A model generated the notes under the pieces. It did not search any database and was not told the DNA's origin. It worked only from the letters and a program-made list of their open reading frames with translations. From Gemmatimonadetes bacterium 2013_60CM_65_52 (GTDB lineage Bacteria > Gemmatimonadota > Gemmatimonadetes > Gemmatimonadales > Gemmatimonadaceae), in assembly GCA_002215645.1 (NCBI GenBank), contig NGFI01000014.1:124001-188000 (forward strand): a stretch of 64,000 bases of DNA. The letters run 5' to 3'. This document shows, piece after piece, positions 2,457 to 13,495 of the stretch (position 1 is the stretch's first letter; every line of letters begins with the position of its first letter). The translations under genes were made by a program, and so were the position numbers.

Positions 2457-2479
2457 CCTGCCAGTGGCCGCCTTGGTGA

Positions 2480-3130
2480 GGGCGGTCCGGTGCACACGTC
2501 TGTGATCAGGCTGAGTCCTGGTGGTTGCAGCAGCGCCTACGACGCAGTTCGCCAGAGGCGCGGCCCTTTTTAGCGACATGCGCGAGGCTAAGGGCCGCTG
2601 CTCTGCATCGTAAACGGCTCGCCCCGGCGTGCGGATGCCACGGGCACGGAACAGCGTCTTCAGGCGAAGCATCACGCGCGTCGAGTCCTCGACCAGATGC
2701 TGATACGTGCGGGCGAGCTCCTTGAGCGTCGCCCGCGCGGGACTGCCGTGATAGACCGCGCGCAGTGTGCCACAGCGCAACAAGTCGGATAACTCGTCCG
2801 CGTCGTGCTGGTCACTCTTGTGTCCCTGCGCCGAACGGCCTCGTCGATCACACACGATCACGCGATCGACCACACGCACAGGATATCGTGCAGCCATTGC
2901 GCCTGCGTGCCTTCTTCAAAGGTGATGTGGAGCGACCTGCGCATGCCGCGGAAGAACGCCACCAGTGGTCCGGCCTCCATCGGTAGAATGGTCGGTGCGA
3001 TCACCCGTCCACCCTCCTCACGAACCGACGCGACGGTGGTTGTTTGGTGCACATCGAGCGCGACATACTTGGTGGAGCGTCTCATGAGAGCGCCTCTTTG
3101 CTGTGGCCCATGGTTTCTCGACAACTCCAT
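2480..3130 (-). mobile_element. IS110-family transposase remnant, frameshifted and truncated
   Basis: The N-terminal part (frame 2858-3130) reads KYVALDVHQTTTVASVREEG, the first DEDD-type catalytic segment of IS110 transposases, and continues to FEEGTQAQWLHDIL. Near 2880 the reading frame shifts. The second frame (2897 downward) continues with VDRVIVCDRRGR, KSDQHDADELSDLLRCGTLR and ARTYQHLVEDSTRVMLRLK, the next conserved segments. After GRAVYDAEQ (about 2600) the match decays, and the C-terminal Ser-containing domain is absent. The element is therefore inactive. It lies just outside the first cassette boundary; some IS110/IS1111 elements are known to target integron attC sites. Exact ends cannot be given. 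Confidence 0.8.
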
Positions 3131-3160
3131 GGTAGCAGCAAGGGCGCGCTCTCAATATCC

Positions 3161-3167
3161 GTTAGAC
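3161..3167 (+). other. Integron core site opening the TIR cassette (GTTAGAC)
   Basis: GTTAGAC fits the integron core consensus GTTRRRY. It is the exact reverse complement of GTCTAAC at 4351-4357, the inverse core found right after the last gene of this cassette. That pairing is expected when both halves come from one circular cassette. Upstream sequence does not look like the 3' half of an attC site, so this end may be an attI-type end or may have been altered by the neighbouring insertion element. Confidence 0.55.
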
Positions 3168-3228
3168 AACACCCAAGCTGTGGTGTATTTTCGGCAGTGC
3201 CCAGACGCCAGCCCCGCCCTTAGTGACC

Positions 3229-3960
3229 ATGCCAAGAGTATTCATCTCATCTGCGGTGGCTGATCATGGATTTGTTGCCCGCTTACGCGAGCATCTCAAG
3301 CGATCGGGCATTGAAACGACGACCGTGACGGATTCCATCGCGCCCGGCGACGCTATATCGGACGCAGTAACACGTGGCATCGATTCCGCGGACGCATTCG
3401 TCGTTGTGCTCTCGCCTCGCTCGGAGAAGAGCGAGTGGGTTGCGACAGAGGTAGCAATGGCGCTAGCGACCGAACAGCACAAGGGCACTTTTCGGGTGTA
3501 CCCTGTGCTGGCGGACGCGGATACGGACCTTCCATTCTTCTTACGGGACCGCGTCTATCTCGACATGTCGACTGTCAGGCGGTTCAGCGACGCGCTTCCA
3601 AGACTCGTCGAGGCCATCAAGGCGGCTCCGGACACGCAACAGGACACGCAAGAAGCCTTACGTCGGCGCTTGGAGGCGCTCGAAATTCAACGTGCCAGCC
3701 TGAATGCAGCCGAGGAGCATCACAGAGTCTCTCTGATCGAGCGGAGCAAGCTACTAGTGGCAGCGCTTGGAAGCGTGACCATTGTGGTCGGCGTCATTTC
3801 AGGTCTCCTAGTGTTTCGCGGCTCCTGGACCGAATGGCTTCACAAAACGGAATTGGTATGGGCGGCACTCACTATTCTGGCCTCCATGACAACGAGTCTC
3901 GTGACGACGTTCATACTTCGGCGTGCTAGTCGAGAGTCGGAACGGGAGAGTACGCGATGA
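3229..3960 (+). CDS. TIR-domain protein with coiled coil and two C-terminal membrane helices
   Basis: A 243-residue protein starting at ATG 3229 (a GTG at 3223 would add two residues). Residues 2-130 form a TIR domain: strand A is RVFISSAVADHGFVARLREH, and the SPRSEKSEWVATEVAMAL segment carries Glu74 at the position of the catalytic Glu of NAD-cleaving TIR domains such as SARM1. A charged coiled coil (about 140-172) is followed by membrane helices at about 175-196 and 209-230 and a short basic tail. This is the layout of a membrane-tethered sensor or effector, with the TIR probably cytosolic. It overlaps the next gene by four bases, so the two are co-translated. Base composition is visibly less GC-rich than flanking core genes, consistent with transfer. 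An immune role is inferred. Confidence 0.8.
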   Translation: MPRVFISSAVADHGFVARLREHLKRSGIETTTVTDSIAPGDAISDAVTRGIDSADAFVVVLSPRSEKSEWVATEVAMALATEQHKGTFRVYPVLADADTDLPFFLRDRVYLDMSTVRRFSDALPRLVEAIKAAPDTQQDTQEALRRRLEALEIQRASLNAAEEHHRVSLIERSKLLVAALGSVTIVVGVISGLLVFRGSWTEWLHKTELVWAALTILASMTTSLVTTFILRRASRESERESTR

Positions 3961-4349
3961 GCGCACCGGCACTTTCGGCTATCGACATTGAACGCGCGAC
4001 GGAGCAACTCCGCCAAGAGCGCGAGACGTTTGATCAGCAAAAGCAACACGAGAACCGCTGGTTCATACTTAAGCTGGCAATGGGCTATGCATCCATTGGG
4101 TTGTTGGCGGCCATCCTCGTCATCTCATCGTGGATCATTTTTCATGCTGGCGCATTCTCTCAGACCGTTGTTAACTCAGCCGGTGGTGCTATGTTCGTCG
4201 ATACCATTGGTCTTGCAGTCAGCGTCTGGAAGGGTGTCTTGAAGCCAGCCGGAAGGCAGAAGTTGGTTCCGGTTACGAAAGTTAAGTTGCCCATGACAGC
4301 GGGTCGCGCGCTTGGTAGCCCGTCCGAAGGGCGAGATCGCAGCGTGTGA
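3957..4349 (+). CDS. Small coiled-coil, two-helix membrane protein; partner of the TIR protein
   Basis: A 130-residue protein whose ATG overlaps the TIR stop (ATGA). Residues 9-33 are a charged helix (ERATEQLRQERETFDQQKQ), followed by a membrane helix at about 37-62 (LAMGYASIGLLAAILVIS) and a second at about 70-91 ending in VSVWKGVL. The tail is basic and probably cytosolic, ending GRQKLVPVTKVKLPM. No enzymatic motif is visible. Coupling and shared architecture (coiled coil plus helix hairpin) suggest that it forms a membrane complex with the TIR protein. The inverse core GTCTAAC begins one base after its stop codon, as expected for the last gene of an integron cassette. Confidence 0.75.
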   Translation: MSAPALSAIDIERATEQLRQERETFDQQKQHENRWFILKLAMGYASIGLLAAILVISSWIIFHAGAFSQTVVNSAGGAMFVDTIGLAVSVWKGVLKPAGRQKLVPVTKVKLPMTAGRALGSPSEGRDRSV

Positions 4350-4350
4350 T

Positions 4351-4441
4351 GTCTAACGCGTTGCACTTGTCAGAGGAGCTTTTGGTAGCCCGCTGCGCTC
4401 GCCTTTATGTATTCTTTTGCGAGTGAACCTGGGCGTTGACC
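4351..4441 (+). repeat. attC-like site 1 (end of TIR cassette)
   Basis: The site begins with inverse core GTCTAAC (4351-4357) and ends with GTTGACC (4435-4441). The 3' half GCGAGTGAACCTGGGCGTT (4419-4437) matches the half shared by the other sites in this region. An inner palindrome-like segment (CGCTGCGCTCG) is present. The recombination point would be G4435/T4436. The simple core is imperfect at its last positions (GTTGACC against GTTRRRY). Confidence 0.65.
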
Positions 4442-4634
4442 GATCGGGAGAAGTCTCAATGCATTGTCGTCTTCAGAACGTGGTTTCGTATAGGCGTGCC
4501 GTCGCGCACAAGCCGGATTGGCCGAAGCGTAGGCGACGCGAGAATCTTCTTTATTTCCGCTACGCCGGGACAGGGAGGCGCCGCGTACCGGCCCCCCGTG
4601 TGCGGGAGCGAACGAGTTCAGCGGAGATTTTATT

Positions 4635-5291
4635 GTGAGCCACACAGCGCCTCGGTCCGTCCCCTCGCCAATCGCGCCGTCCTTCCTAACGACGACATAC
4701 TCTGAGCTCTGCCGCAGCTATCAGGGATTGCACAACTTCCGGATGAAACTTCTCGGGTTTCTCCCTATTGCCTCAGTCGCTGGGTTGGTCGCGCTGGGCA
4801 AGGCTTTGCCAACGTCGCCGCAGCCGGAGCTTCAACCAGAAGTCGTTGGATACATCGGCATCTTTTCTGGCATTCTGACTCTCGCACTATTCGGATACGA
4901 AGTGCGTAGCCTGCTGATGTGCCATGACTATTCAGTCACTGGCGCGAGCCTCGAAGCAGCGATGGGCATTCGCGGTCAATTCACGCGTTGCGATGAAACA
5001 CGCCACTTTGCGTGCTATCAGGGCACAATCAGGCATCCGCTAGCGCGTCTCGTTAATGACAAGGTAACGTCAAGTCTGGTGTATTCGTTTGTTTTTTCAT
5101 CTTGGTTCTTTGTCGGGCTCAAATGGGCTTTTCATCTGCGGACCGGTCAGTGTGTCTGGTGGGCTGTCGGAATGGGAGCCGCCGTGGCGAGCGGCGCGTT
5201 GCTATTTCTAAGCGTGTTGACACGAGAGTCCAAGAAAGAGGACCTTTTGGTGAACGACGAAGCGGTATTCGTTCTCTTTGAGAGATCGTAA
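4635..5291 (+). CDS. Four-helix membrane protein of unknown function
   Basis: A 218-residue protein from GTG 4635 (no ATG is available nearby in frame). After a Pro/Ser-rich N-terminus comes TYSELCRSYQGLHNFRMKLL, then membrane helices at about 39-56, 70-90, 146-166 and 173-195. The loop between helices 2 and 3 is the longest and contains ALFGYEVRSLLMCHD and a GQFTRC segment. This resembles an uncharacterised bacterial family with a YxxLxxSY...FRxKLLGFLP signature (recognised from memory, not searched). It is the only gene of the second cassette, directly after the TIR cassette, and could be an accessory membrane component or an independent cassette. No enzymatic residues are evident. Confidence 0.6.
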   Translation: MSHTAPRSVPSPIAPSFLTTTYSELCRSYQGLHNFRMKLLGFLPIASVAGLVALGKALPTSPQPELQPEVVGYIGIFSGILTLALFGYEVRSLLMCHDYSVTGASLEAAMGIRGQFTRCDETRHFACYQGTIRHPLARLVNDKVTSSLVYSFVFSSWFFVGLKWAFHLRTGQCVWWAVGMGAAVASGALLFLSVLTRESKKEDLLVNDEAVFVLFERS

Positions 5292-5601
5292 TAGCGAGAG
5301 TCGAACGGCCTAACCTTGGAGTGGAGCCGACGCGGGTACTTGCACCACTTTCGTGGACACTTCCACCTAACGAGGACGAGGTGTCACAATGCCCAGATCC
5401 GGGCCACGACTCAGTTGCTCGGCACTCGGGCGAGCGGCGACGAGCGGCCCACCTAACGAGGCGCTGGACTTGACGGAGCGCGGAGAGCATCCGGTATCGC
5501 GCGCGATCACTATCGCGGACCGGTCGAGGGTATCCCCAGGTTGAGATAGCACCCGCAGGTGAGCTTGGGCATTAGGCTGCGCCCACACCAGGAGGACTTG
5601 C
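5292..5601 (+). repeat. Gene-poor stretch with degenerate attC-like site 2
   Basis: No convincing gene is seen in these 310 bases. Inverse-core-like motifs occur at 5308-5314 (GCCTAAC), 5365-5371 and 5451-5457 (ACCTAAC). CCACCTAACGAGG is repeated at 5363-5375 and 5449-5461. The segment ends with GCAGGTGAGCTTGGGCATT (5555-5573) followed by AGGC, a version of the shared 3' half with ATTAGGC in place of GTTAGGC. This may be one long attC or two decayed sites around a cassette without a gene. A Shine-Dalgarno-like GGAGG at 5591 precedes an ATG at 5602. Confidence 0.5.
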
Positions 5602-5695
5602 ATGCTGGAGTGGCTTGAGCACCTGCTGGTTCTCAGTGAGGCAGCCGATCTATTCACTACGAACGACGAGCCGGCCGCGCTATCGAAGCGCCCTC

Positions 5696-5959
5696 ATGGC
5701 AACCCGCCGCCCCTTGATCGCCAGCTTAGGTATCGGCGCCATCGACTTGCGACGTATCAAGGTGCCATCATCAGGTCTGACTGTCCTCGCCGCCGCGCTC
5801 CTGGGCTGGGTACTGATCCCGATCGCGCTGAAAGCAGGCATCCCGCCGGACGTGCCCGTCGGCCTCGGTGTCATCGTTGGTGGACTTGCCGCATGGACGA
5901 AGCGCAGAGGCATACGCCGCTTGGCCGAACGCCTCACAGAGCGGCGGGTCGAAAGTTAG
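5696..5959 (+). CDS. Small membrane protein, possibly the C-terminal part of a frameshifted gene
   Basis: The open frame from ATG 5696 encodes 87 residues with two hydrophobic segments, LTVLAAALLGWVLIPIAL and VPVGLGVIVGGLAAW, and a basic Arg-rich tail. A better ribosome site (GGAGG, 5591-5595) precedes ATG 5602 in another frame, whose first residues read MLEWLEHLLVLSEAADLF and are plausible protein. A +1/-1 shift near 5690-5710 would join the two into one product of about 119 residues. Either this is a decayed cassette gene, or the true product starts at 5696. No family recognised. Confidence 0.4.
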   Translation: MATRRPLIASLGIGAIDLRRIKVPSSGLTVLAAALLGWVLIPIALKAGIPPDVPVGLGVIVGGLAAWTKRRGIRRLAERLTERRVES

Positions 5960-5974
5960 AGCACGCGACCGCCA

Positions 5975-6074
5975 GTCGAACGCGTCGCTGCACAAGCCGG
6001 GGCGCGATACGGAGTGGCGTTGGCTGCGCCAGCGCCGTCTATTGGAGTGCTTGCAGCTCAACTGGGCGTTGACG
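5975..6074 (+). repeat. attC-like site 3
   Basis: Inverse core GTCGAAC (5975-5981) and core GTTGACG (6068-6074) bracket 100 bases. The 3' half GCAGCTCAACTGGGCGTT (6053-6070) is nearly identical to that of the site at 11754. Partly complementary arms (CGTCGCTGCA and TTGCAGC) flank the centre. It follows the small membrane gene closely and precedes a gene with a strong ribosome site. Confidence 0.55.
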
Positions 6075-6108
6075 GCAACACCAAGAGAAGTCTGAAGGAG
6101 GAGGCTCT

Positions 6109-6483
6109 ATGGCAATCATTCCATCGCTCCGCTGCCGTAGCATGCGGCAGTCACTTGCATTCTACAGCGGCGTCCTCGATTTCGAGCGCGTAGATGGCGA
6201 TGATGAGCTCAGCGACCCGTCGTTCAGCGTTCTCGCCCGCGATGGCAGCCACCTGTATCTCTCAAGCCATCGTGGCGATGGCGTCTTCGGCTCCGTGGTC
6301 GCGATTACGACGAGCGACATCGATGCGCTATTTCGAACATTCCGGGCGCGGGGACTTCAGACCCCGGGCAATCCGGACGCGCCGCAGCATGTGCATGAAG
6401 GCCCGATCGACCAGACATGGGGCACGCGCGAGTTCTACGTCGAGGATCCTGACGGAAACACGCTCCGCTTCATTCAGGGATAG
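6109..6483 (+). CDS. VOC superfamily protein (glyoxalase/bleomycin-resistance fold)
   Basis: A 124-residue single-domain protein with a strong Shine-Dalgarno sequence (AAGGAGGAGG, 6096-6105). It begins [20 protein letters not shown], the usual first beta-alpha of a VOC module, and ends in [17 protein letters not shown], the classic final strand with the metal-ligand Glu region. [11 protein letters not shown] supplies the middle strand. The family includes fosfomycin and bleomycin resistance proteins and dioxygenases; the substrate here is not recognisable. It is the first gene of a three-gene cassette-like interval (6069-8170). Confidence 0.8.
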
Positions 6484-6616
6484 CCATCGATGACGGCTCC
6501 TCGGCGCGGGGAGCGGCATGCGCGGCAACGACACGCTGTCTATTTCCTTCCCTGTTGTTCGACGTCAGTGTAGAAGCCGCAGCTCTCCGACCGCCACCCT
6601 TGCCTGGAAGCACACA

Positions 6617-7264
6617 ATGGCCCGTGTACGCGTGCACAACTTTACGATTTCGCTCGACGGCTACGGCGCTGGCCGGCACCAGACTCGTGAGGATCCCCTC
6701 GGCGTCGGGGGTGAAGCTCTGCATGAATGGTTTATCCCGACCCGCACGTTCCAGCGTATCAATGGCAAGACCGGCGGCACCACCGGCGTCGATGACGATA
6801 TCGCGGCGCGTTTTGGGGTGGGCGTCGGCGCCTGGATCATGGGACGCAACATGTTCGGCCCGATTCGTGGCTCATGGCCCGATGATGCCTGGCGCGGCTG
6901 GTGGGGAAAGAACCCGCCGTACCACGGCCCCGTATTTGTGTTGACGCATTACGGCCGCCCGCCGATTCAGATGGAAGGCGGCACGGTCTTCCACTTTGTC
7001 ACGGGCGGTATCCGCGAGGCGCTGGAACGAGCGACGGCGGAAGCTGAGGGAAAGGATGTGGAGATCGGCGGCGGTGTGGCGACGATCCGCCAGTACCTCG
7101 AAGCGAGGCTCATCGACGAGCTGCACGTGGCGATCGCGCCAAGGCTGCTCGGGTCCGGCGAGCATCTCTTCTACGGCCTCGATCTCACGGCCTTGGGCTA
7201 CGAGTGCACCACCCATGTGCCCACTGCCGCAGCAACCCACGTCGTGCTGACACGACGTCAGTGA
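6617..7264 (+). CDS. RibD C-terminal/DHFR-like reductase family protein
   Basis: A 215-residue protein from ATG 6617 (MARVRVHNFTISLDGYGAG). The start is set by homology, because this family always begins with such a first strand plus SLDG. Other family marks are IMGRNMFGPIRGSW, PVFVLTHYGRPP, VEIGGGVATIRQYLEARLID and LHVAIAPRLLGSGEHLF, which build the NADPH-binding Rossmann-like fold. Members are related to pyrimidine reductase RibD but are usually of unknown substrate. It is the first of three such proteins within 4 kb. It may be co-transcribed with the VOC gene upstream (133-bp gap). Confidence 0.82.
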   Translation: MARVRVHNFTISLDGYGAGRHQTREDPLGVGGEALHEWFIPTRTFQRINGKTGGTTGVDDDIAARFGVGVGAWIMGRNMFGPIRGSWPDDAWRGWWGKNPPYHGPVFVLTHYGRPPIQMEGGTVFHFVTGGIREALERATAEAEGKDVEIGGGVATIRQYLEARLIDELHVAIAPRLLGSGEHLFYGLDLTALGYECTTHVPTAAATHVVLTRRQ

Positions 7265-7302
7265 CTTGAGCGCCGACGGCCACAATTACACCTCGGAGAC
7301 TC

Positions 7303-8091
7303 GTGCGGAAAGCCTGGCTAGTTGCAATCGTGCTCTTGAATGCCTCACCCCTGCCTGCCCAAACGGGATTTCTTGACCGCGCCATTACGATGCACGGCGA
7401 GACCTATCGGTATCAGGTCTATGTCCCCTCGGATTACACGGTGCAGACCAAGTGGCCGGTGATCGTCTCGTTGCACGGCAACGGAGACCAGGGCAGCGAC
7501 GGTATGTACCAGACCAATGCGGCCTTCGCCCGCCGCATTCGAGACAATCGCGGGCCCTTCCCGGCCATCGTCGTCTTCCCACAGGGGAAGGTTGGCACGC
7601 GCTGGCTATATCCCGAGATGCAGGAACTGGTCATCGCGGAGCTCGATCGGACCATCGCCGAGTTCTCCATCGACGCGGCGCGCGTGTACCTCACCGGTTA
7701 CTCGATGGGTGCGACGGGGAGCTACCGGCTGGCATTCAAATGGCCCGCGCGTTTTGCGGCGCTCGTTACAGTCGCAGGTCGCGTAGAACCCGGTGCCGGA
7801 TATGCAGCGATTGAAAGTGAGACCGACCGGCGCACCAATGCGTTCGTCACGGCGCCCGATCCGTTCGCGGCGCTCGCTGCTGGCATCCGACACATTCCCA
7901 TCTGGATTGTCCATGGCGACGCTGATGAACAGGTGCCGGTCGCGCAGTCGCGACAGCTCGTCTCGGCGCTGCAGCACGCGAGAGCAGACGTGCACTACAC
8001 CGAGTTAGCAGCGGTCACTCACTCAGGCGTCCCATCGCGAGCGTATGCCGATAGCACCTTGGTCCAATGGCTCTTCGCGCAGCATCGGTAG
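7303..8091 (+). CDS. Secreted alpha/beta-hydrolase (PHB depolymerase-like esterase)
   Basis: A 262-residue protein starting at GTG 7303, with a signal peptide (RKAWLVAIVLLNASPLPAQ). The alpha/beta-hydrolase core shows the oxyanion segment SLHGNGDQGSDG, the nucleophile elbow GYSMGATGS, an acid in WIVHGDADEQVP and a histidine in AAVTHSGVPS. This order fits the LpqC/poly(3-hydroxybutyrate) depolymerase and phospholipase-like esterases. It is probably periplasmic or exported. Its stop lies 20 bases before attC-like site 4, so it ends the cassette. Confidence 0.82.
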   Translation: MRKAWLVAIVLLNASPLPAQTGFLDRAITMHGETYRYQVYVPSDYTVQTKWPVIVSLHGNGDQGSDGMYQTNAAFARRIRDNRGPFPAIVVFPQGKVGTRWLYPEMQELVIAELDRTIAEFSIDAARVYLTGYSMGATGSYRLAFKWPARFAALVTVAGRVEPGAGYAAIESETDRRTNAFVTAPDPFAALAAGIRHIPIWIVHGDADEQVPVAQSRQLVSALQHARADVHYTELAAVTHSGVPSRAYADSTLVQWLFAQHR

Positions 8092-8110
8092 CGGATAGCC
8101 ACGCTCGGCG

Positions 8111-8177
8111 GCCTAACCCGCTTGCTGCTGACCAGGCCCTAACCGCTGGCGCTTGCTGGTGAACTTGGGCGTTAGGC
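8111..8177 (+). repeat. attC-like site 4 (best match)
   Basis: Inverse core GCCTAAC (8111-8117) and core GTTAGGC (8171-8177) are exact reverse complements, 67 bases end to end. The 3' half GCTGGTGAACTTGGGCGTT (8155-8173) fits the shared consensus. A second CCCTAAC lies inside at 8137-8143. Length, core sequences and position 20 bases after a stop codon all fit an integron attC site. Confidence 0.75.
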
Positions 8178-8205
8178 CGACATTCGAACATGCGAGAGGA
8201 ACATC

Positions 8206-8835
8206 GTGAGCAAAGTATTCGTCAACATTGGGCTTAGCCTCGATGGCTACATGGCACCGGAAGGAATGACCATGGACAAGCCTGAGTACAAGAACTGGGG
8301 CGCCAAGTGGGGGGCGCTGATGGCCTGGATCTTCAATCAACAGTACTTCCGCGAGAACCTCAAGCTCGGACCAGGGGGAGAGACCGGCCCGGTCAATGAC
8401 CTGCTTCGCAGCACCACGGAGCGCATCGGTGCCAACATTCTGGGCAAGCGAATGTTCGACCAAGGCGAGCGCGCCTGGCCAGAGGAGGCTCCGTTTCACA
8501 CACCGGTATACGTTCTTACCCATGAGAGACGCGAACCCTGGGCGCGCCCCGGTGGGACGACCTTTTACTTCATCAATGACGGGCCGGAGCGTGCCCTGGA
8601 GCTGGCTCGGGAATCCGCAGGCAGCCGTGATATTCGTATCGCGGGTGGAGCGGATGTGATCCAGCAGTACCTGAACCTGGGTGTCGTTGACGAGCTGGAA
8701 ATCGCCTTGGCACCCGTGTTGTTCGGCGGCGGGCGGCGTCTCTTCGAGAACCTACGCGAGCCCGGGCCGCAGTTTCGCATTGAAAAGGTTCTTAATGGTC
8801 CAGCTGCCACACACTTGCGCTATGTGCGTCAGTGA
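8206..8835 (+). CDS. RibD C-terminal/DHFR-like reductase family protein
   Basis: A 209-residue protein from GTG 8206 with AGAGGAAC a few bases upstream as the ribosome site. It begins KVFVNIGLSLDGYMAPEG. Family segments are ANILGKRMFDQGERAWP, PVYVLTHERREPW, IRIAGGADVIQQYLNLGVVD and IALAPVLFGGGRRLFENL. An insertion of about 35 residues after SLDG (MTMDKPEYKNWGAKWG onward) is longer than in the 6617 paralogue. It is the only gene between attC-like sites 4 and 5, so it is a single-gene cassette. Substrate unknown. Confidence 0.85.
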   Translation: MSKVFVNIGLSLDGYMAPEGMTMDKPEYKNWGAKWGALMAWIFNQQYFRENLKLGPGGETGPVNDLLRSTTERIGANILGKRMFDQGERAWPEEAPFHTPVYVLTHERREPWARPGGTTFYFINDGPERALELARESAGSRDIRIAGGADVIQQYLNLGVVDELEIALAPVLFGGGRRLFENLREPGPQFRIEKVLNGPAATHLRYVRQ

Positions 8836-8840
8836 GGGCG

Positions 8841-8902
8841 GCCCAACAATCGTTGCAGCGGACGATCCGCTGCGCGGCAGCCGCTGAACTGGGGCGTTCG
8901 AT
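8841..8902 (+). repeat. attC-like site 5
   Basis: Inverse core GCCCAAC (8841-8847) and core GTTCGAT (8896-8902), 62 bases. The centre contains a perfect hairpin (GCAGCGGA and TCCGCTGC around CGA). The 3' half CCGCTGAACTGGGGCGTT closes it. It begins six bases after a stop codon. Length and inner hairpin are typical of short attC sites of proteobacterial gene cassettes. Confidence 0.7.
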
Positions 8903-8985
8903 GCCGCAACCACCTTCCGAAGGTTCACGGTGATTCCGTCGGTGACTCTCTGATCACTCCATGGCGTGCCGCGCTCATTGCGGTC

Positions 8986-9450
8986 TTGTGTCTTGCTGCC
9001 GCGGGTGTGGCGTCATGGTTTCCCGCGTTTCGTACCGGGAGCGTCGTGCTTCTGTTCGCCGCCATATTTCTGGTCGGCAGTGCGTTCAGTATCGCTGGCC
9101 GAGCGGCGCGCTCCCTTCAGTTCCTCCGCGGCACTCGGGTGCGCGTCGTCGCCTGGGGGCAGCCGCTCCCGGCGTCCGACGGTCCGTTCTATGTCGAGTC
9201 GATCGCAAGCCTTGGCGTCGGTCTCCTCATCAGGCTCCACGCTACGCCGGATGCAAGACCGATCCTGCTCAAGATTGCCCAGCCACAAGATGTCCTCGTC
9301 TCCGCCGAGCGTCTCACAATCGGTCGTGCCGGCTATGTTCAGTGGTCAAGCCGCAGGCTCGAGCGGCCCACGGGCGGTCCGGTGCCCGCGCTGATAGTAG
9401 AGCCCGTAACCCGCCATCCGCCCGCTGCTTCCGGCGCGCCGCCGGCATAG
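8986..9450 (+). CDS. Hypothetical membrane-anchored protein
   Basis: A 154-residue frame with a hydrophobic N-terminal half (SVVLLFAAIFLVGSAF) and a soluble beta-rich C-terminal part (GTRVRVVAWGQPLPAS, LLIRLHATPDARPILL). The start is uncertain: the first usable codon in frame is TTG 8986, but coding-like sequence (ITPWRAALIAVLCLAAAG) extends upstream to about 8950 without an ATG or GTG. The upstream part would be a first membrane helix. No family recognised. It lies in the cassette between sites 5 and 6, in the usual cassette orientation, tail to tail with the reverse operon. Confidence 0.45.
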   Translation: MCLAAAGVASWFPAFRTGSVVLLFAAIFLVGSAFSIAGRAARSLQFLRGTRVRVVAWGQPLPASDGPFYVESIASLGVGLLIRLHATPDARPILLKIAQPQDVLVSAERLTIGRAGYVQWSSRRLERPTGGPVPALIVEPVTRHPPAASGAPPA

Positions 9451-9667
9451 CGCGCGTTACAGAGGACGCGCAGCGAGTTGTTGGACTGAACGGCACTCGC
9501 GGCGGTGATGTGCGCGTTCGGAAGAGCGGATGCGCAGTACGCCCGCGCAGTCCGCGGCCACACGGTGTCTGCCGCCGGCGGAGCGCGGGTGCCGCGAGCG
9601 AGGCAGAGCGAACGTCAGACGGCAGAACGAACATGCATGCAGCACTCCAGGTGTTGTGACGCTCGAA

Positions 9668-10249
9668 CTATCCGGTCTTCAAAGGCCCTAAGACCTTGTA
9701 CGTGTTGAGGAGGACGCCGGTCGGCGTGGCCGTCGTGCTGACGAGCTCGAATGCGCGTGCCGGGGTTCCCTCGGCAAAGAACCGCTTCCCCGTCCCCAAC
9801 AAAACCGGAGACACGATCAGCACGGCTTCATCCGCAAGCCCATGTTCGAGCACCGTCGACGTCAGCGTAGAGCTACCGGAAAGGACAAGGCCCGGGCCAT
9901 CCTGCGACTTGATGCGGCGAACGCCTTCGACGAGGTCCGGTCCAACGCCCTCGCATGGCCCCCATTCAAGACTCTCCGGACGGTGGGTCACCACGTACTT
10001 CGTTGCCGCATTGATGCGATCCCCTATCGGACTGCTCGGCGCCTTCCCCCAGGAGACCGACCAGATATCGTAGGTGCGACGGCCAAGCAGCAGATCGAAG
10101 CGCTCGCCATGCGCGGCCATGACCAACTCCCGGCCGGCGGGGGTCCGATAGGGCGCGGTCCAGTCGATGTAGGGGAAGTCGCCGTCATCGGCGGAGTGCT
10201 GAATCACGCCGTCCAGCGAGATGTGTTCGATGATTTTGAGCTTTCTCAT
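9668..10249 (-). CDS. RibD C-terminal/DHFR-like reductase family protein
   Basis: A 193-residue protein beginning MRKLKIIEHISLDGVIQHS. The ATG overlaps the stop of the upstream SRPBCC gene (ATGA). Later marks are DLLLGRRTYDIWSVSWG, KYVVTHRPESLEWGP, LVLSGSSTLTSTVLEHGLAD and IVSPVLLGTGKRFFAEG. This is the third member of the family in the cassette region, but it lies in a three-gene operon on the opposite strand. HTH regulator, SRPBCC protein and DHFR-like reductase together form a combination often seen in soil bacteria; the pathway is unknown. Confidence 0.85.
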   Translation of the reverse strand: MRKLKIIEHISLDGVIQHSADDGDFPYIDWTAPYRTPAGRELVMAAHGERFDLLLGRRTYDIWSVSWGKAPSSPIGDRINAATKYVVTHRPESLEWGPCEGVGPDLVEGVRRIKSQDGPGLVLSGSSTLTSTVLEHGLADEAVLIVSPVLLGTGKRFFAEGTPARAFELVSTTATPTGVLLNTYKVLGPLKTG

Positions 10250-11058
10250 TTGATCTCCGCCGGCATCGGGAAGCGTTCCTGCATCCAGGCTTGCCACAGC
10301 GGTGTCTCGCGGGCGGCGGTTCCGGCCGCCTGATCGCCATAGTGGTAGACGGTCAACGCAACCATGCTCTGGCCGCCCATGCTGAAGGCTCCAAGGGCGC
10401 CTACGCCCGGCCCCGGCTTGTCGAGCCGCAGCAGGGCGTCGTACGGACCCTCGCTGACGTACTCCGCCACGCCGCCGAGCGCCGGGACATCCGCGGGCGA
10501 CGCCCAATGCTGCCCGACGCTCACGCCTTTCAGTCCCAATGCCGCAGTCAACTTTTCCCAGGCCTCCGCTTCCGTTCCCTCGACGGGAGCCACGAACTGC
10601 ATGATCGCCGAGCGCTGGCCGCGGAAGTGCGTGAGATAGATCCGCAGGGTGCGGAAGAAGCCGGGCCAGCCCGATTCGGTGGCTTCAAGCTGGTTGTCCC
10701 AGTCGTCGGTGCTGGCGAAGAGGCTGTGCACCACACGGACGAGGCAGACACCACCCGCGCGCGCTTCGACGCTCCACTCGGTTGCCATGGGCGGCGAGCC
10801 ACCCCAGCCCTCGCCCTGCGCGGCAAACATCCGCGGCGGATCCCAGGTCGTCATTGAAGAACGGGCCATCATGCCCGGTCCGAAATTCGACTTCACCGCG
10901 ACGGGCCTTCCATCGCTCTCCTCGAACTCCGTCGGCACGAACCAGGACGAGACACCAGGCCCCGTAGCAATGGCCTGCCAAACTTCCTCCGGGGTGCCGG
11001 GGACTTCGACTTCGACCTGAACGGAACGGCGTCCGGAAGCTTCTTTCTTCACGCTCAT
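10246..11058 (-). CDS. SRPBCC/AHSA1-domain protein
   Basis: A 270-residue protein that starts at ATG 11058, overlapping the regulator stop by four bases. Its N-terminal half is an AHSA1-type START fold: VEVEVPGTPEEVWQAIATG, then SSWFVPTEFEE, MTTWDPPRMFAAQGEGWG and the C-terminal helix WPGFFRTLRIYLTHF. The last 100 residues (from about VAPVEGTEAEAWEKL) look like a second, more degenerate domain of related type. Such proteins bind hydrophobic ligands. It is co-translated with the HTH regulator upstream and the reductase downstream. Confidence 0.8.
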   Translation of the reverse strand: MSVKKEASGRRSVQVEVEVPGTPEEVWQAIATGPGVSSWFVPTEFEESDGRPVAVKSNFGPGMMARSSMTTWDPPRMFAAQGEGWGGSPPMATEWSVEARAGGVCLVRVVHSLFASTDDWDNQLEATESGWPGFFRTLRIYLTHFRGQRSAIMQFVAPVEGTEAEAWEKLTAALGLKGVSVGQHWASPADVPALGGVAEYVSEGPYDALLRLDKPGPGVGALGAFSMGGQSMVALTVYHYGDQAAGTAARETPLWQAWMQERFPMPAEIK

Positions 11059-11657
11059 GATGTCTCCTTGGGATTCGATTTCAGCGGTAGGGGGTGCGCC
11101 ACGACGACCAGGCGATGCGCGCGGCCGCCGCGAGCGGATTCGTCGTGGTATTTCGAAACGAGTTTGGTGATGGCGCCGGCGAGTTCGTGGCTGAACGCCG
11201 CCCGGTCCGTCGGCGATCGGAAGCGAACCTCGGTATCCACCGCCAGGGTCGCGAGGCGTTTGCCAGACGCGTTCGCGCGACGAACGAGATCCCCCACCTC
11301 GCGAACAAGCCGTGCGCCCAACGCGATGAGATAGCTCGCGGACAGCCGATCGACTTCCCGATTCGGATCGACAGCGACCGGGCCCAACGCGCTCGGCGAA
11401 ACGACATAGGAAGCGGCCGTCGCGACGAGCAGCCGTTCGGTCAGCCCGCCCCATTTGCGTTCCTGGGCCAGCCGCACCAGCCCGTGCGTCTCCAGCGCGC
11501 GCAGGTGGTAGTTGACTTTTTGCCGAGCCACGCCGACGCGCGTAGCCAGCGTCGCCGCCGAGGCGGGCGCGGCCAGTTCGGAAAGGAGTCGGCTTCGTAT
11601 CGGCTCCATGGCTACCGCCGCCGCCGCCGGATCATCGATGACCTGGATGTCGAGCAT
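11055..11657 (-). CDS. ArsR-like winged-helix transcriptional regulator
   Basis: A 200-residue regulator starting MLDIQVIDDPAAAAVAMEPI at 11657. A longer frame to 11762 exists but runs through the operator and is unlikely. The DNA-binding part is IRSRLLSELAAPASAATLAT and VARQKVNYHLRALETHGLV, the HTH_20/ArsR type. The C-terminal helical region (ASYLIALGARLVREVGDLVR) resembles regulators that pair with SRPBCC proteins. A perfect dyad lies 14 bases upstream of the start and is the likely autoregulatory operator. Confidence 0.82.
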   Translation of the reverse strand: MLDIQVIDDPAAAAVAMEPIRSRLLSELAAPASAATLATRVGVARQKVNYHLRALETHGLVRLAQERKWGGLTERLLVATAASYVVSPSALGPVAVDPNREVDRLSASYLIALGARLVREVGDLVRRANASGKRLATLAVDTEVRFRSPTDRAAFSHELAGAITKLVSKYHDESARGGRAHRLVVVAHPLPLKSNPKETS

Positions 11658-11671
11658 GAGGGGATGGTAGT

Positions 11672-11693
11672 CTTGACAACTTTTCTTGTCAAG
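11672..11693 (-). promoter_or_regulatory. Perfect dyad operator upstream of the ArsR-like operon
   Basis: Arms CTTGACAA (11672-11679) and TTGTCAAG (11686-11693) are exact inverted repeats around a 6-base spacer. The dyad ends 14 bases before the regulator start at 11657. Its TTGACA-like arm may also serve as a -35 element, so repressor binding would block transcription (inference). Confidence 0.6.
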
Positions 11694-11698
11694 CGGTG

Positions 11699-11776
11699 AT
11701 CCAAGGCTCAAGTCGGTGGAAGCTCGCTGCGCTCGCATTGATTTGATCCGCGCGCAGCTCAACTTGGGCGTTGCCA
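11699..11776 (+). repeat. attC-like site 6
   Basis: The inverse core is degenerate (ATCCAAG, 11699-11705), and the core is GTTGCCA (11770-11776). The 3' half GCAGCTCAACTTGGGCGTT (11754-11772) is the closest match to the regional consensus. An inner CGCTGCGCTCG (about 11726-11736) resembles the centre of site 1. Confidence 0.6.
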
Positions 11777-11815
11777 GGTCATCCGAGCCGATTCTCGGTA
11801 TTAGGTATCTTTGTC

Positions 11816-12058
11816 ATGCCTGAGTATCGGTTCACGAACTACTTCGAGCGCGAAGTCCTGCGCAAGCGGCCCTATCTGCGACGCGAATGGTGCATCGCAG
11901 TGATTGAGCAGCCAAGCCGGGTTGAGGCTCAGGAGGACAACCGCGTACGGTTCTGGGGTGTGGTGCCGGAGCTAGGCGGACGATATCTTCGAGTGGTGAC
12001 CCTTTCGGACCGGCTCACGATTCACAATGCGTTTCCCGACCGGGGATTCACGCCATGA
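11816..12058 (+). CDS. Small protein paired with a DUF2283 protein (toxin-antitoxin-like)
   Basis: An 80-residue protein beginning MPEYRFTNYFEREVLRKRPY at ATG 11816. The core (WCIAVIEQPSRVEAQEDNR, FWGVVPELGGRYLRVVTLSD, TIHNAFPDRGF) resembles DUF4258-like or BrnT-like small proteins that sit next to DUF2283 proteins. Many such pairs are predicted toxin-antitoxin modules; no activity is proved for this family member. The stop overlaps the next start by four bases (ATGA). It is the first gene of the last cassette (11771-12359). Confidence 0.65.
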   Translation: MPEYRFTNYFEREVLRKRPYLRREWCIAVIEQPSRVEAQEDNRVRFWGVVPELGGRYLRVVTLSDRLTIHNAFPDRGFTP

Positions 12059-12273
12059 AGCTTGCCTACCATTCGGACACAGACTCGCTCTACATCGATC
12101 TGTCGGAGCATCTGAGCGTCGAGAGCCGCGAGATTTCAGAGGGCGTCGTTCTTGACTACGACGCTGAGGGAAGCCTTGTGGGTATCGACATCGACAATGC
12201 GAGTCGCAAGGTCCAGCTCGAGCATCTCGTCCTGACCGGCATGCAGGGAGAGATCGAGCGCCGCGCTGGCTAA
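12055..12273 (+). CDS. DUF2283 domain protein (putative antitoxin)
   Basis: A 72-residue protein starting MKLAYHSDTDSLYIDLSEH, with VVLDYDAEGSLVGIDIDNAS and LEHLVLTGM, the full-length DUF2283 pattern. It is coupled to the preceding small gene by a four-base overlap. In the order toxin-like then antitoxin-like, the pair looks like a type II module; such modules are well known as stabilisers of cassette arrays. Its stop codon (TAA) is part of the inverse core of attC-like site 7. Confidence 0.8.
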   Translation: MKLAYHSDTDSLYIDLSEHLSVESREISEGVVLDYDAEGSLVGIDIDNASRKVQLEHLVLTGMQGEIERRAG

Positions 12274-12366
12274 CGTGTTGGCACTGCCAACTAACGCTGT
12301 GGATGTCGCCCGCTGATGCGGGCGTTTTTTGTTTGTCTCGCTTGCAGGTCAACTTTGGCGTTGAGC
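12267..12366 (+). repeat. attC-like site 7 (last of the array)
   Basis: The inverse core TGGCTAAC (12267-12274) overlaps the preceding stop codon, and core GTTGAGC (12360-12366) fits GTTRRRY. The 3' half GCAGGTCAACTTTGGCGTT (12344-12362) matches the shared consensus with one change. Compared with TGGCAAC, the complement of this cassette's own opening core at 11770, the inverse core has one extra T. The site contains an intrinsic terminator. Confidence 0.6.
12307..12330 (+). terminator. Rho-independent terminator inside attC-like site 7
   Basis: CGCCCGC (12307-12313) pairs perfectly with GCGGGCG (12318-12324) around a TGAT loop and is followed by six T. It ends transcription of the DUF2283 pair, and of anything read through the array, before the convergent rsgA gene. 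Confidence 0.8.
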
Positions 12367-12404
12367 GAGCGATGATCACTTACTGCGCAACCAAGCGCGA
12401 GGAC

Positions 12405-12508
12405 TCAGCTTCCGACGATCTCGTTGAGCCCCTCGACGACCCGAACGAGTTCCTCCGCCGAGACGCGCGCCAGTCGGCGCCCGATGCGTTCGGTCGCGAG
12501 AGCCCCCA
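12405..12508 (-). pseudogene. Possible C-terminal remnant of a MazF/PemK-like toxin
   Basis: Downstream of the rsgA stop, in another frame, the sequence reads ATERIGRRLARVSAEELVRV and then VEGLNEIVGS before a stop. This resembles the last helix of MazF/PemK toxins (pattern R-L-G-R-L-S-x-E-x-L-x-x-V-x-x-x-L). No N-terminal part exists, because the frame runs straight into rsgA. It may be a relic of a cassette or toxin-antitoxin gene lost at the array border. The match is short and made by eye. Confidence 0.3.
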
Positions 12509-13495
12509 TCACCAGGCTGGTGCGCTCGCCTCCAGCTCCGACCTGAGCTTCACGTAGCTCTCGTAGCGCCGCCGACTCACCTCTCCACGCTCGACCGCCG
12601 CGCGCACCGCACAATCGGGCTCGACCCGATGCGTGCAATCGGCGAATCGACATTCGTCGCGATGCGCACGGAGCTCCGGGTAGCACTGGTCGAGCTCCGT
12701 GGGAAGCAACGCCCACATGCCCACCTCGCGCAGCCCGGGAGTATCCGCGACGTAGCCTCCACCGGGCAGCGGATGCAGATACGCGCCCACCGTGGTGTGA
12801 CGCCCCTTGTTGACGGACTCGCTGATTTCTCCGATCCGGAGCTCGAGCCCCGGAAACATCGCGTTCAGCAGCGACGACTTCCCCACGCCAGAAGGACCGG
12901 TAAGGACGCTCACTTTGTCCGCGAGCGCATCGTGCAGCTCGTCCAACCCTTCCCGCTCCTTCACGCTGGTGTAGTGCACGTGATAGCCGGCCTGCTCGTA
13001 GTCACGCCAACGCTCCTGCTCCACCGTGCGTCCACCGGTGAGCTCGACCTTGTTGATCACGATGCGTGCGACGAGGTCGTTCGCCTCGACGATGACGAGA
13101 AAGCGGTCGAGCATCCGCGGGTGCGGATCCGGATTCGCCGCCGCGAAGACGACGACGACCTGATCCACGTTGGCCGCCAGAATGCGCTCCCCCTGCCCGC
13201 CTCCGGGCGCGCGCCGTGCGAGTCGCGACGTGCGCGGCAGAATCTCCGAAATCGCGGCGGTGGGCGATTGCTCCTCCTGCTCGAGCACCACGTGGTCGCC
13301 GACGGCGAGCTTGAGTGTCTCCGCGGCCGACTCCACGGTATCACGACGCAGCGAGCCGTCCGGCCGGCGGCCTGCATTCGATTTCTTCACGCGGCCGCGC
13401 AGCGACGCCTCGAGGATGACGCCGTCCTCCCGCTGCACGCGCCACACGCCGCCGGTCCCGCTGAGCACAACGCCCTTCATTTGACGCTCGCTCAT
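12509..13495 (-). CDS. rsgA: Ribosome small-subunit-dependent GTPase A
   Basis: A 328-residue circularly permuted GTPase that helps mature the 30S subunit. The N-terminal OB fold (to about 95) leads to IVINKVEL (G4), GPSGVGKSSLLNAM (G1), a Thr-containing switch (NKGRHTTVG) and VADTPGLREVGMW (G3), in the permuted order G4-G1-G3. The C-terminal zinc motif is CRFADCTHRVEPDCAVRAAV with Cys-Cys-His-Cys ligands. A long basic loop with VKKSNAGRRPDGSLRR in the N-terminal domain is typical. It overlaps the upstream hypothetical gene by four bases. Confidence 0.95.
   Translation of the reverse strand: MSERQMKGVVLSGTGGVWRVQREDGVILEASLRGRVKKSNAGRRPDGSLRRDTVESAAETLKLAVGDHVVLEQEEQSPTAAISEILPRTSRLARRAPGGGQGERILAANVDQVVVVFAAANPDPHPRMLDRFLVIVEANDLVARIVINKVELTGGRTVEQERWRDYEQAGYHVHYTSVKEREGLDELHDALADKVSVLTGPSGVGKSSLLNAMFPGLELRIGEISESVNKGRHTTVGAYLHPLPGGGYVADTPGLREVGMWALLPTELDQCYPELRAHRDECRFADCTHRVEPDCAVRAAVERGEVSRRRYESYVKLRSELEASAPAW

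Follow-up and report, generated by a model that had tools for sequence, protein, structure and literature searches.

A two-gene integron cassette encoding a membrane TIR protein and a small membrane partner in a Gemmatimonadetes bacterium: a plausible anti-phage module

Organization of the locus

The window analyzed in this work, that is, the whole stretch of 64,000 nucleotides, corresponds to positions 124001-188000 of contig C3, in a host genome of 4.2 Mb distributed over 14 contigs. Near its left end lie two overlapping genes, the first encoding a TIR protein and the second a small membrane protein, within a single integron gene cassette. The TIR domain is an enzyme fold that frequently serves to kill cells infected by phages. 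The features of the locus are listed below in window coordinates.

2457-12508, unstranded: cassette-array island lacking an integrase, from GntR to RsgA (attC-type 3' ends; empty site in congeners)
2652-3130, minus strand: disrupted remnant of an IS110-type transposase, left end of the array (PF01548, E 2e-9, second frame)
3161-3167, plus strand: R' core GTTAGAC, the left cassette boundary, its upstream half-site replaced by the IS110-type remnant
3162-4435, plus strand: integron gene cassette with both genes (complementary end cores, attC arrangement)
3229-3960, plus strand: gene for the TIR protein, 243 amino acids (PF13676, E 1.4e-22; PF01582, E 4.4e-10)
3238-3606, plus strand: TIR domain (Pfam envelope, AlphaFold2, Foldseek)
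3448-3450, plus strand: codon of Glu74, at the position of the NADase glutamate (TIR alignments, solved TIR structures)
3628-3813, plus strand: long predicted helix, residues 134-195, linker or coiled-coil-like and running into the first membrane segment, TM1, at 177-195 (AlphaFold2 pLDDT 52-62, hydropathy 2.41)
3826-3954, plus strand: second predicted helix, residues 200-242, with the second membrane segment, TM2, at 212-230 and a basic tail (AlphaFold2 pLDDT 38-62, hydropathy 1.76)
3957-4349, plus strand: partner gene, 130 amino acids, predicted helical membrane protein (ATGA overlap, AlphaFold2)
4351-4441, plus strand: attC of the cassette, with R'' GTCTAAC, L'' GTTGCACTTG, L' GCGAGTGAAC and R' GTTGAC (bottom-strand fold)

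On its plus strand, the window contains GTTAGAC (3161) and GTCTAAC (4351) a single time each. The two motifs are exact reverse complements of each other, a relation expected of the ends of one circularizing cassette, with the recombination point behind the G of GTT at both ends. When folded, the bottom strand of the attC has its R and L boxes paired, the spacer unpaired and one base bulged. Its folding energy is unexceptional compared with shuffled sequences (z -0.83). Since energies alone do not separate such sites from shuffles, the box arrangement and the array were taken as the evidence and the energy was not used. The left boundary consists of an R' half-site, with no complete attC or attI beside 3161, because the IS110-type remnant abuts this core. 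The N-terminal part of the transposase lies in a different frame from the one matching PF01548. attC sites are known targets of some IS110/IS1111 elements.

The cassette has a GC content of 57%, compared with 68-69% in two flanking core genes, and the third-position GC (GC3) of its two genes is alike (0.63 for the TIR gene and 0.62 for the partner). The initial annotation of this DNA had placed both reading frames and the boundary cores at 3161-4441, had read the matching cores as the marks of one mobile unit and had described its composition as different from that of the flanks. All these points were borne out: the two genes are carried by one integron cassette, with cognate R''/R' cores and a folded attC.

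The cassette array and its integrase

The TIR cassette is the first in an array of ~10 kb containing at least seven attC-type 3' ends (4435, 5571, 6065, 8171, 8896, 11770 and 12360). The array is flanked by GntR (1677-2456) and RsgA (12509-13495, minus strand), two genes that adjoin each other directly in every one of the other nine genomes of this genus. The gap between them is ~10 kb here, compared with ~10-380 bp between alignments in the nine congeners. Such an empty site indicates that the array, TIR pair included, was acquired by this genome. With the whole array absent from every congener, the mobility proposed for the cassette is more strongly supported by the empty site than by composition alone.

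The pattern AACTKGGGCGTTR has nine matches in the host genome, all of them forward, against one match for the reversed control. Contigs C3 and C7 carry some of these matches, and the others lie in a densely packed array with which contig C8 begins. The array of the window, on C3, carries no integrase of its own, and an integron integrase was found on contig C11.

L016 8277-9692 (end of contig C11): integron integrase (TIGR02249)

This gene scores 411 bits against a cut-off of 265 and lies 0.4 kb from the contig end. A possible att-type site (GCATAAC...GGCGTTATGT) was observed downstream of it, and the end of C11, with the integrase, and the start of C8, with the main attC array, may be joined there. 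The array of the window shares with CALIN-type arrays the attC sites, the scarcity of promoters, the absence from congeners and an integrase located elsewhere in the genome, but differs from them in having two genes in a single cassette.

The neighbors of the TIR cassette that have family matches encode ordinary enzymes, namely RibD, a glyoxalase, an esterase and a polyketide cyclase. In the main array of the host, on C8, one cassette carries an Mrr-type endonuclease domain (PF04471). The product of the cassette following the TIR pair is a protein of 218 residues (window 4635-5291) that has three membrane segments and no match in Pfam, PADLOC or NCBIfam. A possible second two-gene cassette was noticed in the C8 array (L060 4260-5035), where a 156-residue ORF with two membrane segments overlaps a 101-residue ORF, with no PADLOC match.

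A promoter search for the TIR cassette returned no candidate above chance. This result, the lack of an integrase in the array and the IS110 remnant occupying the end where a promoter would be expected are what one would find if the cassette were decayed or silent, a stored gene with no present function. Both reading frames are nevertheless intact and the core residues of the TIR domain have been kept, and we regard such a silent state as highly improbable.

The TIR protein

The TIR reading frame starts at the ATG at 3229; an alternative GTG at 3223 would extend the product to 245 amino acids. In the AlphaFold2 model, which was built with 15 sequences (a viral scan with a narrow TIR alignment supplied rows), residues 1-130 adopt a confident TIR fold, with pLDDT mostly between 83 and 96. 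Foldseek comparison with the PDB returned TIR matches with TMt up to 0.88, the neighbors of the domain including AbTIR, SPARTA, TIR-STING, Cat1 and SARM1. Glu74, counted from the ATG, belongs to an SxWxxxE helix and aligns with the glutamate of three solved bacterial TIRs, that is, 3h16, 7uxr and the CRISPR-associated Cat1 (the reference proteins being PdTIR, AbTIR and Cat1). The residue is invariant in two alignments, of 15 and eight rows, in which the window protein is compared with TIRs from bacteria, plasmids and viruses. By profile, fold and the SxWxxxE glutamate, the protein appears to fit the NADase type, and cleavage of NAD+ is predicted.

The C-terminal half was modeled as a helix (134-195), a short turn and a second helix (200-242), with pLDDT values of 38-62, and its hydrophobic segments lie at 177-195 and 212-230. 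This layout of helices and hydropathy indicates a long helical hairpin that carries the TIR domain and spans the membrane with its distal half. The basic character of the tail RRASRESERESTR suggests a cytosolic location for both ends. A crude heptad test of the linker gave a weak coiled-coil signal, 29 of 300 shuffles being as good as the real sequence. The initial annotation had correctly placed Glu74 at the catalytic position and correctly counted two membrane helices. The coiled coil that it assigned to the protein is matched by the long helix of the model, but the heptad signal is weak.

The partner protein

The start codon of the partner lies within the stop of the TIR gene (ATGA, 3957), and the 130-residue reading frame at 3957-4349 agrees with its first description. 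A single-sequence AlphaFold2 model (mean pLDDT 70) contains helices at 8-67 and 75-94, followed by disorder. Hydropathy reveals a strong membrane segment at 44-62 (2.17) and a weak second one (peak 1.38). In the crude heptad test, 127 of 300 shuffles were as good, which leaves a coiled coil unsupported. The partner had been said to have the same layout as the TIR protein. This is partly right: the long helix and one strong membrane segment agree with it, but the second helix is weak and the heptad signal is missing.

No Pfam profile matched the partner above its cut-off, nothing meaningful was found in PADLOC, PHROGs, NCBIfam or the PDB sequences, and the AlphaFold2 model matched no PDB fold. 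Profile scans detected no macro, SLOG, STALD or other ligand-binding domain in this protein, which has ~100 structured residues.

Toxin-antitoxin cassettes are known cargo of integron arrays. The overlapping genes, with a putative NAD-cleaving domain as the possible toxin, could accordingly be taken for an addiction pair that stabilizes the array, in which the partner would restrain the TIR toxin and loss of the cassette would free it. However, a toxin-first order and a membrane partner are unusual for such pairs, and no DNA-binding domain or other antitoxin signature was found in the partner by the profile scans, so that an addiction function seems quite unlikely.

Search for relatives of the pair

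No relative of the partner was found in 395 genomes of the phylum, in GTDB contigs, in viral contigs or in plasmids, the genome and viral contig scans reaching close relatives only. The search against phages gave one chance match (E 5), and that against 179 genomes of the family gave chance-level matches on the membrane segments. The C-terminal half of the TIR protein likewise had no relative in the collections searched, whereas the TIR domain has many distant ones. Since no second copy of the pair was found anywhere in the search, neither a conserved link between the genes nor selective constraint acting on the partner is demonstrable.

Two sets of matches were rejected as relatives. The first was a match to the membrane part of the TIR protein in a sister genome (G001, contig C180; E 5e-4), which proved to be not a TIR but a membrane ORF of 130 residues that follows a gene for an IclR-like regulator. 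The second comprised LemA-like coiled proteins, which in several genomes matched residues 114-191 (E 0.002-0.004). The same sister genome, from the same genus, also contains a tail-anchored TIR-like protein of 170 amino acids without the SxWxxxE motif (L005 1432-1944, minus strand).

The fetched loci contain 41 other TIR ORFs; ten of them encode a membrane segment C-terminal to the TIR domain, and not one of the 41 is closely followed by a small membrane ORF. Membrane-anchored TIRs are common enough, therefore, for the membrane part alone to say little. Such proteins are ordinary, and the pairing of a TIR with a small membrane partner was seen once among the loci examined. In the literature, we found no description of a TIR protein that has two membrane helices and is paired with a small membrane protein.

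That membrane-anchored TIRs exist without an adjoining small membrane gene, and that the partner has no conservation signal and no homologue found, would suit a TIR protein acting alone as a membrane-tethered NADase or adaptor, with the second ORF as a passenger sharing the cassette by chance. The ATGA overlap, the similar GC3 of the two genes and the coherent helical membrane prediction argue instead for a real coupled gene, and make a chance passenger rather improbable.

A second TIR cluster in the same genome

Another group of TIR genes was observed in the host genome, on contig C14 (~140.2-146.2 kb).

L115 6218-6874 (plus strand), 6964-7500 (minus), 7452-8096 (minus), 8039-8851 (minus), 8725-10209 (minus) and 11499-12146 (plus): genes of the second TIR cluster

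The overlapping minus-strand run encodes a TIR fused to a TGT-like domain (PADLOC TGT, E 2.9e-22), an Ogg-HhH glycosylase, QueC (PF06508, E 6.9e-34) and a ThsB-type TIR (PF08937, E 2.1e-25), with two further TIR proteins beside it. In type IV CBASS, the accessory proteins are QueC, TGT and OGG. Here these three stand with TIRs, and the genes scanned at this locus did not include a cyclase. This cluster is possibly more novel than the cassette pair.

Comparison with known defense systems

The likeness to Thoeris lies in the TIR domain itself, which matches the ThsB_TIR profile (PF08937) with 25.2 bits against a cut-off of 21.2, far below its match to TIR_2. The differences are that the TIR here is anchored in the membrane, that the partner has no ligand-binding domain and that profile and PADLOC scans of the cassette detected no ThsA of either type (SIR2-SLOG or TM-macro). 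The profiles PF18185 and PF20016 had no match in the host genome, although the control profiles gave none either. Regarding CBASS and Pycsar, neither protein contains a STING, SAVED or cNMP domain, and the flanking cassette genes scanned are unrelated. As for SPARTA, the TIR protein has no APAZ and the cassette consists of two genes, neither of them an Argonaute. The absence of ThsA, CBASS and STING genes beside the TIR, as first noted from the sequence, was thus upheld by the profile and PADLOC scans of the cassette.

The TIR-STING and TIR-SAVED effectors of CBASS and the SPARTA system share with the window protein the TIR fold and the catalytic glutamate, as seen among the Foldseek neighbors, and are activated by assembly. 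They differ in that the cassette has no STING, SAVED, CD-NTase or Argonaute. TIR NADases become active once other parts of the protein bring the TIR domains together (PMC12847820). SpbK of Bacillus subtilis is a single-gene TIR NADase that senses a phage portal, and its authors drew parallels with STING-TIR, SAVED-TIR, Pycsar and SARM1 (PMC12847820). SpbK shares the TIR NADase fold with our protein and is activated by clustering through another domain. It senses, however, by means of a soluble N-terminal domain, whereas the non-TIR part of the window protein is a C-terminal membrane hairpin.

The closest layout that we found is the AC1 locus of a P2-like phage, a validated phage defense in which a TIR is encoded with transmembrane proteins and which protects E. 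coli C against lambda, LF82_P8 and P2 (Rousset et al. 2022, PMC9122126). Both are TIRs encoded with membrane proteins on a mobile element, a likeness of description; tblastn against phages gave weak matches to the TIR domain only. The AC1 system has three genes, whereas in the window the TIR includes a membrane hairpin of its own and the pair is carried by an integron cassette. The pair had initially been called undescribed, which holds for its exact composition but not for the layout of a TIR with membrane proteins, already validated in AC1 (PMC9122126).

For the AC1 locus, the authors proposed a signaling mechanism (PMC9122126) that could also be envisaged here: as in Thoeris, the TIR would make an ADP-ribose-type messenger and the partner would be the effector that opens or damages the membrane. 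The effector of type II Thoeris, TM-macro (PMC11204291), speaks for the same possibility. The partner, however, has none of the ligand-binding domains listed above in its ~100 structured residues, and a producer of a soluble messenger would have no need of a membrane anchor of its own. A messenger system is on balance unlikely.

Function of the pair

A TIR on a membrane hairpin, encoded together with a second helical membrane protein, is most simply explained if clustering of the enzyme is regulated within the membrane. Our preferred reading, to which we assign a probability of roughly 0.4, is an abortive-infection system in which a TIR NADase tethered to the membrane is the effector and a small subunit serves as regulator or sensor. 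The TIR domains would lie on the inner face of the membrane, where the hairpins and the partner, as a regulatory or sensing subunit, would keep them apart or inactive. An infection cue, either a phage protein or a disturbance of the membrane, would then cause the membrane parts to cluster, allowing TIR domains to pair and to form a composite active site. The resulting cleavage of NAD+ would stop growth before phage release. In this chain we infer the NAD+ cleavage, the formation of a complex and the phage as a trigger; the TIR domain, its glutamate, the membrane segments, the gene overlap and the cassette were shown here.

The carrier of the pair adds some context to a role against phages. Sedentary integrons have come to be seen as reservoirs of anti-phage genes. 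One source (PMC12444791), citing Darracq et al. 2025, gives ~20% as the share of the Vibrio cholerae integron cassettes without predicted function that are anti-phage. Against a defense role stand the neighboring cassettes with family matches, which are not defense genes, and the lack of a promoter above chance. Taking both sides together, it is plausible that the cassette pair is an anti-phage module.

A more far-reaching version makes the pair a two-subunit, membrane-embedded TIR immune receptor. The TIR hairpin would join the partner in a mixed helical bundle, which would itself sense a membrane change caused by the phage and turn on NAD+ cleavage; neither a distinct sensor domain nor a second messenger would take part. 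We consider this receptor very unlikely. The tethered NADase effector with its small subunit is still the reading that we favor.

Anti-phage systems that annotation tools overlook are now known to reside in integron cassettes. If the proposed function is true, a small cassette of two genes with a catalytic TIR anchored in the membrane would provide an easily cloned test of direct membrane triggering as opposed to a soluble sensor or messenger. Even if the pair is not a defense system, the locus is still an example of an intact cassette array that is specific to one genome and has entered a conserved junction between two genes.
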